A DNA stretch of 64,000 nucleotides, from contig JAHCHY010000021.1 in assembly GCA_026129485.1 (NCBI GenBank), positions 18,238 through 82,237 of the forward strand, written 5' to 3'. Under the pieces are notes generated by a model, which was given only the letters and a program-made list of their open reading frames with translations, was not told the DNA's origin and ran no database searches. Numbering within the stretch: position 1 is the first letter of the stretch; every line of letters begins with the position of its first letter. This document shows, piece by piece, positions 194 through 16,101 of this stretch. The position numbers were made by a program, and so were the translations under genes. Origin of the DNA: Cyclobacteriaceae bacterium (lineage in GTDB: Bacteria > Bacteroidota > Bacteroidia > Cytophagales > Cyclobacteriaceae).

Positions 194-1981
194 ATGGCAA
201 AACGCAATCGTCAGGAGGACGGAGAGAAAAAACCACTCAATAAAGCCGGGATCAAAAAATTCCTCGGGGTGTTTCGTTTTGTGCTCCCCTACAAATGGAC
301 CTTCGCTATCGGATTGGCAGCGCTATCCCTGTCCAGCGGTGTTTTACTATCCTTCCCCTATCTCTCCGGAAAATTGTTAGATGTGGCCCAGGGTAAAGCC
401 GATTTCTATTTAACCACCATCAACCAGGTTGCATTGGCCATGATAGCCGTGCTGCTGATCCAGGGAGTGTTTTCGTTCCTGAGAGTATATACTTTCACCT
501 ATGTAAGCGAGCATGCGTTGGCCGACCTTCGCATGAAGCTGTACTCAAAAATTATCTGGCTGCCTTTACCCTTTTTTGACAACCGGAGAGTGGGTGAACT
601 GATGAGTCGCATTACATCGGATGTAAGCATTCTGTATGATACGTTTACGTTCACATTGGCAGAGTTGCTGCGGCAGATTTTAATCCTGGTAATCGGCATT
701 CCTTTGCTGGTTGTACTCTATCCCAGGTTAACAGTGTTTATGCTGCTCACATTCCCCGTGCTTATCCTTGCTGCACTCTTTTTTGGTAAGTTCATTCGCA
801 AGCTCTCCAAAAAAACACAGGATCAATTAGCCAATGCCAATGTAGTGGTGGAAGAAACTCTTCAATCTGTAACGGTAGTAAAAGCTTTCACCAACGAAAC
901 CTTTGAAATCAACCGGTATAAAAATTCGCTGGCCGATGTGATAAAAACAGCTATCCGAACCTCGCGCTACCGCGGAGCCTTTATTTCGTTTACAATCGTG
1001 GCTTTGTTTGGCGGTATTGTAGCGGTGGGTTGGTTCGGGGCCTCGCTGGTTCAGTCCGGTGAAGTACCGGTGGGTGCGCTTTTTTCATTTATCATTTACA
1101 CGGTTTTCATTGGTGGTTCAATTGCAGGCCTGGGCGATATTTACAGCCAGTTGCAAAAATCAGTAGGCGCTTCGGAGCGTATTCTTGAAATCCTGGAAAC
1201 TGCCGATGAAAAGCCGGGCATGGCGCCCGGTATAAAACTCAGCGGTAAAATTGTTTTCAATCAGGTACAGTTTGCCTACCCTGCCCGGCCTGATATCCAG
1301 GTTCTCAAAGGCATTCATGTTACCATCCGTCCGGGGCAAAAGGTGGCGCTTGTGGGCCCAAGTGGTTCCGGAAAATCCACAATAATCAACCTGCTGTTAC
1401 AATTCTATCAACCGGGTGGCGGAAGCATTGAGGTAGATGACCAACAGGTTACCCATTATAACCTTCATGCCTACCGCAGCAACTTTGGCGTGGTGCCACA
1501 GGAAGTTATTTTATTTGGCGGTACCATCCGTGAAAACATTGCCTATGGCAAACCCGGGGCTACTGAAGAAGAAATAATAACTGCGGCACAACGGGCCAAT
1601 GCATGGGAGTTTATTGAGAGCTTTCCGGAAGGAATAAACACGGCTGTGGGCGACCGGGGCGTGAAGCTTTCAGGAGGCCAAAGGCAACGCATCGCCATTG
1701 CGCGCGCTATTCTGAGAAACCCCGCCATCCTGGTACTGGATGAGGCCACCAGCTCGCTGGACGCACATTCGGAAAAGCTCGTGCAGGAAGCGCTTGAAAC
1801 CCTGATGCAAAACAGGACAACGTTAATTATTGCACATCGCCTCAGCACTATCCGGAAAGCCGATACTATCCTGGTGATTAAAGAGGGTGTAATTGCAGAG
1901 GCCGGCAGCCATGCCGAACTAAGTGCCCGGGATAATGGTATTTATAGTAACTTGCTCAAATTACAGGTGGACGCAAAATGA
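194..1981 (+). CDS. ABC exporter, fused membrane and ATPase domains (MsbA/BmrA-like half transporter)
   Basis: This 595-residue protein has the layout of a type IV ABC exporter half-transporter that works as a homodimer in the inner membrane. Residues about 30-315 hold the six-helix membrane domain. Residues about 345-590 hold the ATPase, with Walker A GPSGSGKS near 388, the signature LSGGQ near 492, Walker B ILVLDE near 513 and the H-loop IIAHR near 548. The length is normal for the family. The substrate cannot be read from sequence; lipid, peptide or drug export are all possible. The stop codon overlaps the start of the Fur-family gene (ATGA), so the two are translationally coupled. Confidence 0.9.
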   Translation: MAKRNRQEDGEKKPLNKAGIKKFLGVFRFVLPYKWTFAIGLAALSLSSGVLLSFPYLSGKLLDVAQGKADFYLTTINQVALAMIAVLLIQGVFSFLRVYTFTYVSEHALADLRMKLYSKIIWLPLPFFDNRRVGELMSRITSDVSILYDTFTFTLAELLRQILILVIGIPLLVVLYPRLTVFMLLTFPVLILAALFFGKFIRKLSKKTQDQLANANVVVEETLQSVTVVKAFTNETFEINRYKNSLADVIKTAIRTSRYRGAFISFTIVALFGGIVAVGWFGASLVQSGEVPVGALFSFIIYTVFIGGSIAGLGDIYSQLQKSVGASERILEILETADEKPGMAPGIKLSGKIVFNQVQFAYPARPDIQVLKGIHVTIRPGQKVALVGPSGSGKSTIINLLLQFYQPGGGSIEVDDQQVTHYNLHAYRSNFGVVPQEVILFGGTIRENIAYGKPGATEEEIITAAQRANAWEFIESFPEGINTAVGDRGVKLSGGQRQRIAIARAILRNPAILVLDEATSSLDAHSEKLVQEALETLMQNRTTLIIAHRLSTIRKADTILVIKEGVIAEAGSHAELSARDNGIYSNLLKLQVDAK

Positions 1982-2391
1982 ATTCCGGGGGTAAGATTCT
2001 GAAAGACTACCAGCTAAGAACAACCAATAGCCGCGAAGCTATTCTGGATTTGTTCCTTAAGAATGGCTTTGCGCTTTCATACTCGGATATTGAGCGTGAA
2101 ATAGCAGCTTCTTTTGACCGGGTTACCGTTTACCGAACCCTTAAAACCTTCCTGGACAAAGGCGTTATTCATAAAGTGCTGGATGATGAAGGTAGCTTAA
2201 AATATGCCCTTTGCAGTGAGCCTTGCTCAACACATGAGCACCACCACGAGCACGTGCACTTTAAATGCGAAAAGTGCGGGCAGACAAATTGCCTGGAATC
2301 CGTTACCATCCCCGAGGTTTCCTTGCCCAAAGGTTTTTCCGTTAAGGAGATGAACCTGCTGATACAGGGCCGGTGCGATAAATGTCAATAG
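1978..2391 (+). CDS. Fur-family metal-responsive repressor, possibly Zur-like
   Basis: 137 residues. An N-terminal winged helix (about 10-85) contains the family's RVTVYRTLKTF recognition-helix region. The C-terminal dimerisation domain carries a His-rich stretch (HEHHHEHVH, about 86-94), the CEKC pair at Cys97/Cys100 and a second pair CDKC at Cys133/Cys136, which are the expected structural zinc ligands. Fur-family proteins repress metal-uptake or stress genes when metal-bound. The His-rich loop hints at zinc sensing, but Fur, Zur and PerR cannot be separated safely by eye. It overlaps the ABC exporter by 4 bases. The paired operators near 13.0 and 15.5 kb are possible targets (inference). 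Confidence 0.85.
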   Translation: MNSGGKILKDYQLRTTNSREAILDLFLKNGFALSYSDIEREIAASFDRVTVYRTLKTFLDKGVIHKVLDDEGSLKYALCSEPCSTHEHHHEHVHFKCEKCGQTNCLESVTIPEVSLPKGFSVKEMNLLIQGRCDKCQ

Positions 2392-12620: not shown

Positions 12621-12959
12621 ATGAAATTAAAGTTTTCATACCTGTTTTCATTAGCGGTGCTTTCACTTGTAGCAGTGGCCACGCACGCCCAGGAGGGTTC
12701 CCAGGGACCAGAAGAGATGCCACCTTCTATGGAATCATCTGCTAAGGAGGACAAGCCCCTGATCTACGAACCTGAAGGAAAAGCTTCCAACAACAATCAA
12801 CAACCTTCTGTCGCTCCAGTTATTACCAGCAAGCCAAAGTCAAAGTCGCCTGATACTGCCAGGAATTCTACCGGAAAACCCGAAGACGAGGCTTTGTCTT
12901 TCAACTTCCTGCTGCACATCATTCAGAAGTTCAAAAGTTCTGACGTGCTCGGCCAATAA
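12621..12959 (+). CDS. Small secreted protein of unknown function
   Basis: 112 residues. An N-terminal signal peptide (about 1-23: basic start, hydrophobic core, cleavage after ATHA) is followed by a Pro/Ser/Lys-rich, low-complexity region without recognisable domains. The C terminus ends in a short amphipathic helix (FLLHIIQKFKSSDVLGQ). It ends 66 bases before the TonB receptor on the same strand, but that receptor has its own promoter and operator, so co-transcription is uncertain. I do not recognise the family. Confidence 0.6.
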   Translation: MKLKFSYLFSLAVLSLVAVATHAQEGSQGPEEMPPSMESSAKEDKPLIYEPEGKASNNNQQPSVAPVITSKPKSKSPDTARNSTGKPEDEALSFNFLLHIIQKFKSSDVLGQ

Positions 12960-13000: not shown

Positions 13001-13021
13001 TATATTTGCAACTCTGTTGCA
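13001..13021 (+). promoter_or_regulatory. Promoter -7 box overlapped by a TGCAAC-N3-GTTGCA operator (TonB receptor)
   Basis: TATATTTG at 13001-13008 is a -7 box. The inverted repeat TGCAACTCTGTTGCA at 13007-13021 overlaps its last two bases and covers the likely transcription start. A repressor bound here would block initiation. The same arrangement recurs at 15467-15487. Confidence 0.6.
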
Positions 13022-13025
13022 CTTT

Positions 13026-15431
13026 GTGAGAGTCTTATTACTTATCGGGTTTCTCTGGTTCAGCAGCTTGCTGCAAGCACAGGACACTTGTACCTATAGC
13101 ATTCAGGGAATTGTTACAGATGAATCCGGAAGCCCGTTGGCCGGGGCATCTGTGCTGATTGCCAATACCCGCCAGGGTGAAGCCACCGACTTAGCCGGTC
13201 GTTTTAATCTTACTCAGCTCTGCAAAGGCAGTTATACCCTTACAGTTCAATACCTGAGTTATAAAACCGCAGAACAAAAGGTTGTGCTTGAAGCCAGCAC
13301 GACAATCACCATTACGTTGCAACCTGAAGAAATAGTATTGCAGGAAGTACTGGTAGCAGGCCACACAGAAGTAGTTTCCAGAACCAGTAACTCGATTTCG
13401 CTTCATGCAAGAGAACTGAATGAGCTAAAAGGAAAGTCGCTTGGCGAAACCCTGCAAAACATCAACGGGGTTAATTCCATCCAATCCGGCCCGGCAATTT
13501 TTAAACCGGTTATACACGGTGTGCACAGCCAGCGCATTCTGATTTTAAACAATGGCATCCGGCAGGAAGGTCAGCAATGGGGCGCAGAACATGCTCCTGA
13601 AATAGACCCTTTCGTAGCCAATAACCTTACGGTGATAAAAGATGCAGGAGCCATTAAGTATGGTACGGATGCCCTGGGCGGTGTAATTGTGGTAACACCT
13701 GCCGAGCTGCCTATGGATGAAAAGATTGGCGGAGAGCTGCATTTGATTGGCAATTCCAACGGGCGTGCAGGTACCGTTTCCGGGTTACTGGAAGGAGGAA
13801 TCAAAAATCTGAAAGGCTGGGGCTGGCGTGTGCAGGGCACGCTTAGAAAAGCGGGAGATACACAAACCCCCGATTACGTACTTTCCAACACGGGCTTTCG
13901 CGAAAGAAATTATTCTGTGTCAGCCGGCTATCATACCGGGAACAAGGGCTTTGAGGTTTTTTATAGCCATTTCAACACTACCATTGGAATACTGCGCGGT
14001 TCGGTTAGCAGCAGCAGCGAAGATCTTGCGCTTGCCATGAAACGCGATGTACCTCAATACACCACCGATTTTACCTATCGCATCAGCGAACCCAGGCAGG
14101 AAGTTACACACAACCTGGTTAAGCTAAACGGCCATATTCGCAAAGACAAAAATGTTTTCAACGTTCAGTACGGTTTGCAGATCAACAACCGGAAAGAGTT
14201 TGATGTGCGCAGGGGTACACTAACAGAAAAAGCTGCCCTGGCATACAATTTATTTACCCACACTCTTGATGCGGAGTGGGAATCAACTTTGTCTGATACG
14301 CACAATCGTTGCATCGGTATCAACGGCATGGTGCAGGACAACAACAAAATAGATGGCACGCAAACCCTGCCTTTCATTCCCAACTTCAGAAATTATTCCG
14401 GGGGTATTTTCTGGATCGAAAAAATCAATCGTACCAAAATCAGCTATGATTTTGGCTTGCGGTATGACTACCGGTACTATCAGGTTGCCGGGTTTAACTT
14501 TCAGAACAGGCTTTACAAAACACAGTTTGGCTTTGGCAACGTTACCGCCACAGCCGGTGTAAATATGAAGTTGTCAGCTCCGTTTACATTTACCAGCAAT
14601 GTAGGCAGTGCGTGGCGGCCACCCAATGTTGCCGAGTTATACAGTTTAGGCACCCATCAGAGCGCAGCAGCCATTGAATACGGTTTGTTGCTAAATGAAA
14701 TAACCAGCCAGGTAATGGAAATGAAAGGGTCTGGTATAAAAGCCGAGCATGCGCTGAAGTGGGTAAACACCCTGAAGTTTGCAGAGAAGCGGTGGCAGGG
14801 TGAAGTTACCGGTTATGTGAATTACATCTTCAATTACATTTACCTGAAGCCGCGGGGCATTACTGAAGCCGGCCGCGGGCCTTTTGCCTATTTCCGGTAT
14901 ACGCAGACCGATGCTTCCTTTTTAGGTTTGGATGCCAGCATACAGTATGAAATTGCTTCCGGCTTTTCCATTCGGCCCGGAGCCTCGCTGCTACGGGCAA
15001 AAGACGAAGCACAAAATGATTATCTCATTTTTATTCCATCCAACCGGTATGATGTTTCCTTCCGCTACGAAAAGAAACCCGGAAGAGGTCATCATGGATT
15101 TTTCACACAATTGCGTGTGAAGCATATAGCAAAGCAAACCCGCGCGCCACGGGTAGTTTCTCCTGAAGAAATTCTGCAAGCCAGGCAGCAGGGTGTTGAT
15201 TTGTTTGAGCAGGATGCGCGCAATTTTGATTTTATGGCCGCACCTGAAGGCTACTGGCTGGTGGGCTTTAGCACCGGCTTATCTGTTCCGGTTAAACGCT
15301 CCAAGCTGGATTTTCGCCTTTCGGCTGATAACCTGGCCAACGCCCGTTACCGCGAATACACCAACCGCATGCGTTATTTTGCCAATGATGCAGGCCGGAA
15401 TATCTCCGTTGGTGTAAATCTCAGCTTTTAG
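13026..15431 (+). CDS. TonB-dependent outer-membrane receptor with carboxypeptidase-like N-terminal domain
   Basis: 801 residues from a GTG at 13026, chosen because the signal peptide RVLLLIGFLWFSSLLQA starts there; an upstream TTG at 13017 lies inside the operator. Residues about 25-100 form a CarboxypepD_reg-like beta domain (IQGIVTDESGSPLAGASVLI). Then come the TonB plug (about 120-225, with GVHSQRILILNNGIRQEGQQWG and GTDALGGVIVVTPAEL) and a 22-strand-type barrel ending in SVGVNLSF. Such receptors import metal chelates, vitamins or other scarce nutrients using TonB energy. The plug pattern HAPEIDPFVA recalls zinc or iron receptors. A lipoprotein with the same operator follows. Confidence 0.9.
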   Translation: MRVLLLIGFLWFSSLLQAQDTCTYSIQGIVTDESGSPLAGASVLIANTRQGEATDLAGRFNLTQLCKGSYTLTVQYLSYKTAEQKVVLEASTTITITLQPEEIVLQEVLVAGHTEVVSRTSNSISLHARELNELKGKSLGETLQNINGVNSIQSGPAIFKPVIHGVHSQRILILNNGIRQEGQQWGAEHAPEIDPFVANNLTVIKDAGAIKYGTDALGGVIVVTPAELPMDEKIGGELHLIGNSNGRAGTVSGLLEGGIKNLKGWGWRVQGTLRKAGDTQTPDYVLSNTGFRERNYSVSAGYHTGNKGFEVFYSHFNTTIGILRGSVSSSSEDLALAMKRDVPQYTTDFTYRISEPRQEVTHNLVKLNGHIRKDKNVFNVQYGLQINNRKEFDVRRGTLTEKAALAYNLFTHTLDAEWESTLSDTHNRCIGINGMVQDNNKIDGTQTLPFIPNFRNYSGGIFWIEKINRTKISYDFGLRYDYRYYQVAGFNFQNRLYKTQFGFGNVTATAGVNMKLSAPFTFTSNVGSAWRPPNVAELYSLGTHQSAAAIEYGLLLNEITSQVMEMKGSGIKAEHALKWVNTLKFAEKRWQGEVTGYVNYIFNYIYLKPRGITEAGRGPFAYFRYTQTDASFLGLDASIQYEIASGFSIRPGASLLRAKDEAQNDYLIFIPSNRYDVSFRYEKKPGRGHHGFFTQLRVKHIAKQTRAPRVVSPEEILQARQQGVDLFEQDARNFDFMAAPEGYWLVGFSTGLSVPVKRSKLDFRLSADNLANARYREYTNRMRYFANDAGRNISVGVNLSF

Positions 15432-15466
15432 CTTCTGTAACATTGTTGCATATTCCAATTAAACAA

Positions 15467-15487
15467 TATATTTGCAACTGTGTTGCA
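15467..15487 (+). promoter_or_regulatory. Second promoter/operator of the same type (lipoprotein gene)
   Basis: TATATTTG at 15467-15474 is overlapped by TGCAACTGTGTTGCA at 15473-15487. This matches the 13001-13021 site except for the centre base of the spacer. The identical geometry at two adjacent genes argues for one repressor controlling both. Confidence 0.6.
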
Positions 15488-15504: not shown

Positions 15505-16101
15505 ATGAAATTCTCTTTCAAGGTTTTTAGTCTTGTGCTGTTGGCAGGCGGTGTACTTATGTTTAGCGGTTGCGATAAGGACCCCGAACCCGAAAACATT
15601 CCGGAAATGATTACACGCGTGGTGCTTACGTTTACGCCCGCAGGAGCTGCCCCGATAGTGGCAGAAGCAAACGACCCCGATGGTGATGGGCCACAGGATA
15701 TTGAGATCGAACCCATTGTGCTGAATGCCAATACCGATTACACGCTTACCATTCAGCTCTATAATGGCTTATACGAACCGACCGATCCGGAGTATAACAT
15801 TACTGAAGAAGTGGAAGAAGAAGGAGATGAGCACCAGTTTTTCTTTGGCTGGTCTGCAGGGTTGTTTACATCGCCAACCGGTACAGGTAATATCGGGGCT
15901 GCCGGGACTGTAAACTATGCTGACGAAGATGCCGGTGGCTTACCGATTGGTTTAACCACCACATGGACTACCGGAACTGCAACCAGCGATAAAAGCTTCA
16001 GGGTCATTTTAAAACATCAGCCAGACATTAAGTCGGTAACATCCACTTCTGCAGACGGTGAGAGCGACCTGGATGTAACTTTCCCGATCAGCATCAATTA
16101 A
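15505..16101 (+). CDS. Lipoprotein co-regulated with the TonB receptor
   Basis: 198 residues from ATG 15505; the frame opens earlier, but only inside the operator. A lipoprotein signal (LAGGVLMFSGC, Cys about 24) puts it on a membrane surface. The mature part is acidic and beta-rich: ITRVVLTFTPAG, then DPDGDGPQDIEIEPIVLNANTDYTL, then DEHQFFFGWSAGLF, then GLPIGLTTTW and the ending DLDVTFPISIN. It looks like a single immunoglobulin-like or barrel-type domain. Homologues beside TonB receptors are familiar in Bacteroidota, but I know no established function. Shared control suggests it helps capture the same substrate (inference). Confidence 0.75.
   Translation: MKFSFKVFSLVLLAGGVLMFSGCDKDPEPENIPEMITRVVLTFTPAGAAPIVAEANDPDGDGPQDIEIEPIVLNANTDYTLTIQLYNGLYEPTDPEYNITEEVEEEGDEHQFFFGWSAGLFTSPTGTGNIGAAGTVNYADEDAGGLPIGLTTTWTTGTATSDKSFRVILKHQPDIKSVTSTSADGESDLDVTFPISIN

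Follow-up and report, generated by a model that had tools for sequence, protein, structure and literature searches.

The 64,000 nucleotide stretch of a Cyclobacteriaceae genome analysed here (GCA_026129485.1, contig JAHCHY010000021.1; hereafter the window) harbours a gene for a TonB-dependent receptor followed by a lipoprotein gene, and both are preceded by the 15 bp palindrome TGCAACNNNGTTGCA. This palindrome is very likely the operator of the sole Fur-family regulator of the cell, a putative zinc sensor (Zur), and its copies at the receptor and lipoprotein genes are very probably Zur binding sites. That a single Fur-family repressor would serve both genes is well supported, and its metal is most likely zinc rather than iron; the grounds are the linkage of operator and regulator gene in relatives, their shared absence, the zinc-type target genes and the identity of the palindrome to the core of a Zur box predicted in Desulfovibrio.

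Operator sequences in the window

The 21-mer TATATTTGCAACTSTGTTGCA was found exactly at 13001-13021 and 15467-15487, as given in a preliminary description of this DNA, and these were the only two matches in the window when up to three mismatches were allowed (mean 0.00 in 100 dinucleotide shuffles). The palindrome TGCAACNNNGTTGCA within it was present three times at up to one mismatch, with 0.25 expected, and at three mismatches its matches could not be told from background, with 28 observed and 37.59 expected. The copy carrying the mismatch, TGTAACATTGTTGCA (15436-15450), had been overlooked and is located 37 bp upstream of the palindrome of the lipoprotein gene. Both exact palindromes lie directly before start codons, as first described, one 17 nt before the ATG of the lipoprotein gene at 15505 and the other 4 nt before a GTG at 13026. 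This GTG is probably the start of the receptor gene, since a signal-peptide-like sequence begins at that codon; the TTG at 13017 is likewise open as an alternative start.

The consensus of the −7 promoter element in Bacteroidota is TAnnTTTG, and in the window the last two bases of a putative element of this kind are the first two of the palindrome. Among the named relatives described below, this overlap was seen at 32 of 87 sites on the strand that faces the gene and at 2 of 87 on the other, in agreement with the proposal that a −7 box and the repeat share bases; at the sites of fur-family genes it was found in none of 8. The base preceding the palindrome was T in 90% of the 87 sites, which fits a place inside a −7-like element. 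Where the element is present, the operator would cover the promoter, as expected of a repressor. Paired sites upstream of the lipoprotein gene were 36-39 bp apart in four of five cases in the named relatives, and the upstream site of the window presumably lies over the −33 region.

Conservation in relatives and linkage to a fur-family gene

Two sets of relatives were analysed. The family set comprised 98 genomes of 84 genera, in which 30 loci with a receptor homolog, including that of the window's own genome, were read strand-oriented. The named set consisted of the best 80 of the receptor-homolog loci listed, with dinucleotide shuffles and five control patterns for comparison. The exact palindrome occurred 160 times in 59 of the 98 family genomes, compared with 3 occurrences of the palindrome read backwards. 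A site with at most one mismatch was detected in 28 of the 30 family loci (not in L052 and L070) and in 69 of the 80 named loci. In the named loci such sites preceded 57 of 76 receptor genes (31 exact; shuffle mean 0.05), 20 of 71 lipoprotein genes (18 exact; shuffle mean 0.10) and all 8 linked fur-family genes (7 exact; shuffle mean 0.00).

These numbers bear on an alternative without a regulator, in which the two copies arose by local duplication or a palindrome formed by chance around the promoter sequence TATATTTG. The two 21-mers do differ by a single base and are about 2.5 kb apart in one window, but the named loci contained 117 sites at up to one mismatch against 0-4 for the five control patterns, and 61 exact sites against none; together with the excess of 160 over 3 in the family genomes and a third exact site on another contig of the same genome, this makes duplication or chance scarcely credible.

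A Fur-family gene was linked to the receptor and lipoprotein genes in 12 of the 30 family loci, directly upstream of the receptor in 10 and after the lipoprotein in 2, and the encoded proteins were 39-57% identical to the product of the Fur-family gene at 1978 in the window. Eight of the 10 genes linked upstream were directly preceded by a one-mismatch site, the exceptions being L068 and L071. The linked fur-family genes of the named set were those of seven Dyadobacter loci and L139, and in all seven Dyadobacter loci an exact site was present at both the fur-family gene and the receptor gene. A regulator outside the Fur family, for instance of the MarR or TetR type, that binds the palindrome and merely shares zinc-gene targets is very improbable. 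It would accommodate a fur-family gene in the own genome that lies about 11 kb from the two operators and carries none itself. Against it stand the recurrence of the fur-family gene as neighbour and target of the operator (8 of 10 genes linked upstream, 8 of 8 in the named set, 9 of 20 phylum regions picked as described below) and the shared absence of regulator and sites.

Some loci deviated in gene content. The position immediately upstream of the receptor, occupied by the fur-family gene in other genomes, was taken in L050-L052 by a gene for a small protein of about 140 aa that contains His; a one-mismatch site preceded this gene in L050 and L051, not in L052. L130, L132, L137 and L138 had the site 536-561 bp ahead of the receptor, a distance that would suit the same layout. 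Both the receptor and the lipoprotein are encoded on the contig of L197, which bears the title 'Unicellular cyanobacterium SU3' and clusters with Flexithrix in the receptor tree; this assembly is probably contaminated or misnamed.

Shared presence and absence of regulator and operator

Fifty of the 80 named genomes were searched for the regulator, with a match in 41 and none in 9, and the operator was scored as present if the 700 bp preceding the receptor or the 250 bp preceding the lipoprotein contained a site with at most one mismatch. Of the 41 genomes with the regulator 36 had the operator, compared with 1 of the 9 lacking the regulator (Fisher p=2e-5), as would be expected if one Fur-family repressor binds the operator, which is what the preliminary description had proposed. 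Neighbours on the tree cannot be counted as independent, though, and many of these assemblies are drafts of unknown completeness, so that the apparent lack of a gene may reflect a gap. Excluding contigs cut near the receptor start, the counts were 35 of 40 and 1 of 7 (p=3e-4). The regulator-less label required at least four changes on the receptor tree, so the shared absence is not a single event. In the family set an exact site was found in 57 of 87 genomes with a regulator match and in 2 of 11 without (p=0.006); the named and family sets overlap (L134 and G017, for example), so the two Fisher tests are not independent. G017, a genome of the window's own genus given as 100% complete, had no regulator match and no operator at its receptor and lipoprotein genes (L052), and its sole exact site was inside an open reading frame (ORF) for a PIN-domain protein (L115).

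The operator in the remaining genome

The preliminary description had suggested scanning the genome for the operator near gene starts. In this genome (4.08 Mb, 40 contigs, 97.96% complete) the exact palindrome was present three times and its backward control not at all, and all three sites were just before genes, not mostly outside promoters. By allowing one mismatch the number of sites increased to 10, with 7 for the control; single-mismatch sites in this genome therefore carry no weight alone. Two of them were inside long ORFs, and as additional targets they were rejected, with the exception of the two partner sites at 37 bp.

On contig C39 (locus L012), the third exact site lies between two transcription units: the first gene of a tightly packed operon is 4 bp away on one strand, and a second TonB receptor gene (L012:7432-9690) follows after 116 bp on the other. 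The site has a one-mismatch partner 37 bp away, the same spacing as in the pair at the lipoprotein gene. The operon, from which the receptor gene diverges, runs from L012:7298 down to 1693 and its six genes encode a small protein, a His-rich lipobox protein, a COG0523 GTPase, an ABC ATPase and two membrane proteins. The GTPase clearly belongs to PF02492 and PF07683 and scored 562.7 bits with the NCBIfam ZigA model, below the cut-off of 600, the next family reaching at most 161.4. The ABC ATPase was assigned by Pfam, and the one membrane protein scanned gave a weak match to a GldF permease model (42 bits, cut-off 288.5). Small proteins encoded in L012 are somewhat reminiscent of DUF3299; Pfam gave no match. 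One ZIP transporter was detected in the genome, and searches for a ZnuB-type permease and for MerC gave no match in it. The proposed regulon extends beyond the receptor and lipoprotein genes of the preliminary description.

A near-operator with one mismatch, TGCAACCCTATTGCA, was also observed at L015:2591-2605 (G000:C11:67590-67604), about 57 bp before a gene for a heavy-metal P-type ATPase (L015:2662-4623) that scored 501 bits with the cadmium-family model TIGR01512. It is not kept in relatives: among 21 of 30 ATPase loci, a site with at most one mismatch near the gene was found in the own genome only. In L201 the site was about 1.4 kb upstream, and in L206, L208, L213 and L218 two-mismatch sites preceded the start of the match by 163-338 bp. 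A role of Zur in activating exporters has been reported in Caulobacter (PMC4176598) and Streptomyces (PMC5472717).

Genes behind the operator in relatives

To the own locus, 40 loci of relatives were added, giving 41 loci with 46 exact sites, 44 of which were intergenic by ORF call. Sixty adjoining proteins were scanned with Pfam; nearly all were products of first genes, to which the third gene of the C39 operon and two ORFs covering a site were added. Among the 25 of 46 families listed, MerC was the most frequent next to exact sites in relatives, with 8 of the 60 proteins (one below the Pfam cut-off), followed by the TonB plug (7), ABC ATPase (6), COG0523 (3, one of them the C39 gene), pyridine-nucleotide oxidoreductase (3), HisI (2) and FolE (1), the latter being the ordinary FolE family and not folE2. 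HisI and COG0523 are named as Zur-linked (PMC2770081), as are folE2, hisI2 and yciC (PMC6103462). The palindrome is found over putative promoters of genes that by homology are of zinc-uptake type.

Operator-linked MerC-family genes were present in L079, L081, L101, L117, L286, L297 and L301, and in L101, L286, L297 and L301 they diverge from a fur-family gene. The MerC-family membrane proteins of these relatives are candidate zinc importers.

In 198 genomes from the whole phylum the exact palindrome was found in 45, with 68 sites compared with 18 for the control, an excess much weaker than in the family; many of these sites may be due to chance, especially those with GC-rich spacers. Twenty regions were picked by hand, mostly for AT-rich spacers or clustering, and are therefore not a random sample. 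A Fur-family gene was present in 9 of them, and in 7 of these no more than 70 bp separated its start from the site; two more had a COG0523 gene within 45 bp, and another two the receptor and lipoprotein. One of the fur-family genes diverges from a ZIP transporter gene and three diverge from MerC genes.

The Fur-family regulator and its metal

The gene at 1978 encodes a Fur-family protein, as stated previously (PF01475, E=1e-13, 51.9 bits with a cut-off of 23.1), with the Cys/His-rich stretch ALCSEPCSTHEHHHEHVHF, and was the single Fur-family gene detected in the whole genome. The best solved relatives of its product by phmmer were FurB/Zur of M. tuberculosis (2o03) and Zur of E. coli (4mtd). 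The two CxxC pairs, C97/C100 and C133/C136, were invariant in 13 aligned regulators and also in a set of 9, as in a structural zinc site. C79 was aligned by phmmer with a Cys of both FurB and E. coli Zur, which we take to be the regulatory zinc ligand of Zur; it was absent from 3 of the 13 aligned sequences. The structure model of the regulator was mediocre (mean pLDDT 73.4) and was not used. The end of an ABC transporter gene is overlapped by four bases by the regulator gene (194-2391 for both), and the two genes may therefore be co-transcribed. Autoregulation in the own genome was considered and rejected: the nearest site, with two mismatches at 1795, falls inside the upstream ABC gene, and sites at fur-family genes were found only in relatives.

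Several observations weigh against a zinc-sensing regulator acting at these sites. The product of 1978 fell well short of the cut-off of the NCBIfam Zur model NF008646 (36.9 bits, cut-off 167), and the models for Bacillus-type Fur (36.7) and PerR (33.9), both also below their cut-offs, scored it near this value. A profile of its orthologs placed Fur and PerR structures above those of Zur, the regulators of four relatives that were scanned scored best on the Fur model, and 3 of the 12 linked regulators of relatives lacked the Zur-type Cys. Zur and Fur are not distinguished by the protein models, and the sequence of the regulator does not by itself indicate Zur. The gene carries no operator in its own genome, and the lipoprotein genes of the named loci had their own site in just 20 of 71 cases. 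L121 keeps two exact operators without a detected regulator, and L143, L156, L164, L178 and L197 had a regulator match and no site near the receptor, the match in L197 being weak (45 bits). Finally, subtilases, an amidohydrolase and an enolase-like enzyme with no plain zinc link were encoded behind some exact sites, and 7 of the 20 picked phylum regions contained none of the zinc-related genes looked for.

Zinc or iron control had been the guess in the preliminary description, and of the two the present evidence favours zinc. A general iron (or manganese) repressor, with a receptor for iron or haem, would also make use of the single Fur-family protein, which is involved on any reading; the model scores and the ortholog profile just given are in its favour, as is the best NCBIfam match of the receptor, to the haem-receptor family TIGR01785 (108.8 bits, below the cut-off of 316.85). 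COG0523, HisI, FolE and ZIP genes are found behind exact sites, however, and no iron-storage or haem family was among the 25 of 46 Pfam families listed. The regulator has a Cys that aligns with one in FurB and E. coli Zur, and the receptor profile matched the zinc receptor ZnuD best. Moreover, the palindrome is unlike the Fur box GATAATGATnATCATTATC of PMC545781 and is identical to the core of the Zur box that this paper predicts. From the genes behind the sites and this match, iron control is judged improbable.

The receptor and the lipoprotein

Coordinates of the elements discussed are given in Table 1. A profile of 30 receptor sequences had ZnuD (4rdr) as its best solved relative (E=3e-27), with the best stretch over the plug region, and the receptor scored 60.2 bits with the NCBIfam ZnuD model NF038289, below its cut-off of 950. 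The receptor is a candidate outer-membrane zinc receptor. Just upstream of its promoter, an ORF of 112 aa with a signal-peptide-like start was located at 12621-12959; Pfam gave no match for it.

In the lipoprotein, Glu34, His110 and His171 were invariant in 64 aligned sequences (that of the window and 63 of 70 from the named loci) and could form a metal site. Its model was a confident beta-rich domain (mean pLDDT 92.8). Sequence searches identified no solved relative and Foldseek gave no matches at E<=0.001; the weak Foldseek matches were to antibody domains, RhoGDI, CopC/PcoC and SOD1. The lipoprotein is the least known component of the proposed regulon.

Table 1. Regulator gene, promoter elements, predicted operators and target genes in the window.
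Feature	Position	Strand	Remarks
Fur-family regulator gene, probably zur	1978..2391	+	137 aa; two CxxC pairs; Cys/His-rich stretch ALCSEPCSTHEHHHEHVHF; PF01475
Inferred −7 element TATATTTG, receptor gene	13001..13008	+	last two bases common to operator 1
Predicted Zur-type operator 1, TGCAACTCTGTTGCA	13007..13021	.	exact palindrome
TonB-dependent receptor gene	13026..15431	+	CarbopepD_reg_2, plug and beta-barrel domains (Pfam)
Predicted operator 2a, TGTAACATTGTTGCA	15436..15450	.	1 mismatch; 37 bp upstream of 2b; over inferred −33 region
Inferred −7 element TATATTTG, lipoprotein gene	15467..15474	+	sequence; gene-facing enrichment in named relatives
Predicted Zur-type operator 2b, TGCAACTGTGTTGCA	15473..15487	.	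exact palindrome
Lipoprotein gene	15505..16101	+	198 aa; lipobox Cys23; receptor's partner

Proposed mechanism

The regulation by Zur may be depicted as follows: With enough zinc in the cell, zinc would act as co-repressor and a zinc-loaded Zur dimer would occupy the palindrome overlapping the −7 element, with a second dimer over the −33 region at the lipoprotein gene. Zur on these promoters would keep RNA polymerase off. When zinc falls, Zur would be released and the TonB-dependent receptor and its lipoprotein partner would be made, together with the products of the C39 locus, the second TonB receptor and the operon of the His-rich lipoprotein, the ZigA-like COG0523 GTPase and the ABC ATPase. 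At the outer membrane, zinc or one of its complexes might then be captured by the receptor and the lipoprotein.

A wider reading is put forward tentatively. The regulon might extend throughout the Bacteroidota with a box that has hitherto appeared in print for Desulfovibrio, and its core might be an undescribed two-part system of zinc capture, in which a TonB receptor cooperates with a beta-rich lipoprotein binding zinc by Glu34, His110 and His171, as a zinc counterpart of the pairs of haem receptor and haemophore lipoprotein; MerC proteins would be the zinc importers in relatives.

Zur regulons are well described in several phyla, and a single exact operator allows the zinc regulons of Bacteroidota to be read from genomes. 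The operator points to uncharacterised candidate zinc proteins, namely the receptor-lipoprotein pair, the MerC-family proteins and the His-rich small proteins, and genomes apparently without both regulator and sites provide natural comparisons. Literature searches aimed at a Zur regulon of Bacteroidetes, which did not extend to the contents of RegPrecise, found neither such a regulon nor a description of the receptor-lipoprotein pair. As the operator is exact and widely readable and no description of the pair was found, the usefulness of the result is rated above its surprise, which is moderate.

Comparison with known systems

In two reviews of Zur (PMC6103462, PMC8000910), words beginning with 'bacteroid' did not occur. 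RegPrecise 3.0 covers Zur in over 25 taxonomic groups and includes a collection for Bacteroidaceae, so a Zur motif of Bacteroidaceae may exist there.

The closest operator is that of Desulfovibrio, where ATGCAACNNNGTTGCAT was predicted by comparative genomics upstream of znuABC-zur in two genomes (PMC545781). The 15 bp core TGCAACnnnGTTGCA of this Zur box, ATGCAACnnnGTTGCAT, with its 3 bp spacer is exactly identical to operators 1 and 2b of the window, whereas the outer A...T pair of the 17 bp form is not kept, being T...C in site 1 and T...T in site 2b. The Desulfovibrio box is located before a zinc-uptake operon that contains a Fur-family gene named zur. It belongs to another phylum and its target is znuABC-zur, while the targets here are TonB receptors, a lipoprotein and an operon with COG0523 and ABC genes, with no match to a ZnuB-type permease.

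In Vibrio, the Zur-repressed ABC transporter ZrgABCDE includes DUF3299 and predicted zinc-binding proteins (PMC9817125). Compared by description alone, L012 is similar in carrying an FtsX/MacB-type permease together with an ORF (unscanned) that looks like the ATP-binding protein of this permease; the likeness is one of gene content and not of operator control. ZnuD, which the receptor profile matched best over the plug region, differs from the window receptor in that the latter has CarbopepD_reg domains and a lipoprotein partner.

In Caulobacter crescentus, Zur represses TonB receptors (znuK) as well as znuGHI, which is of the ABC-2 type, and two of these receptors are required when the cells are starved of zinc (PMC4176598). 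By layout alone, C39 resembles znuK-znuGHI, with a TonB receptor gene diverging from an operon for an ABC ATPase and two membrane proteins. The Caulobacter operator is different (GTTA-5N-TAAC type), and the C39 operon, unlike that of Caulobacter, adds a His-rich lipoprotein and a ZigA-like GTPase. The Zur regulon proposed here is new in detail, not in kind.

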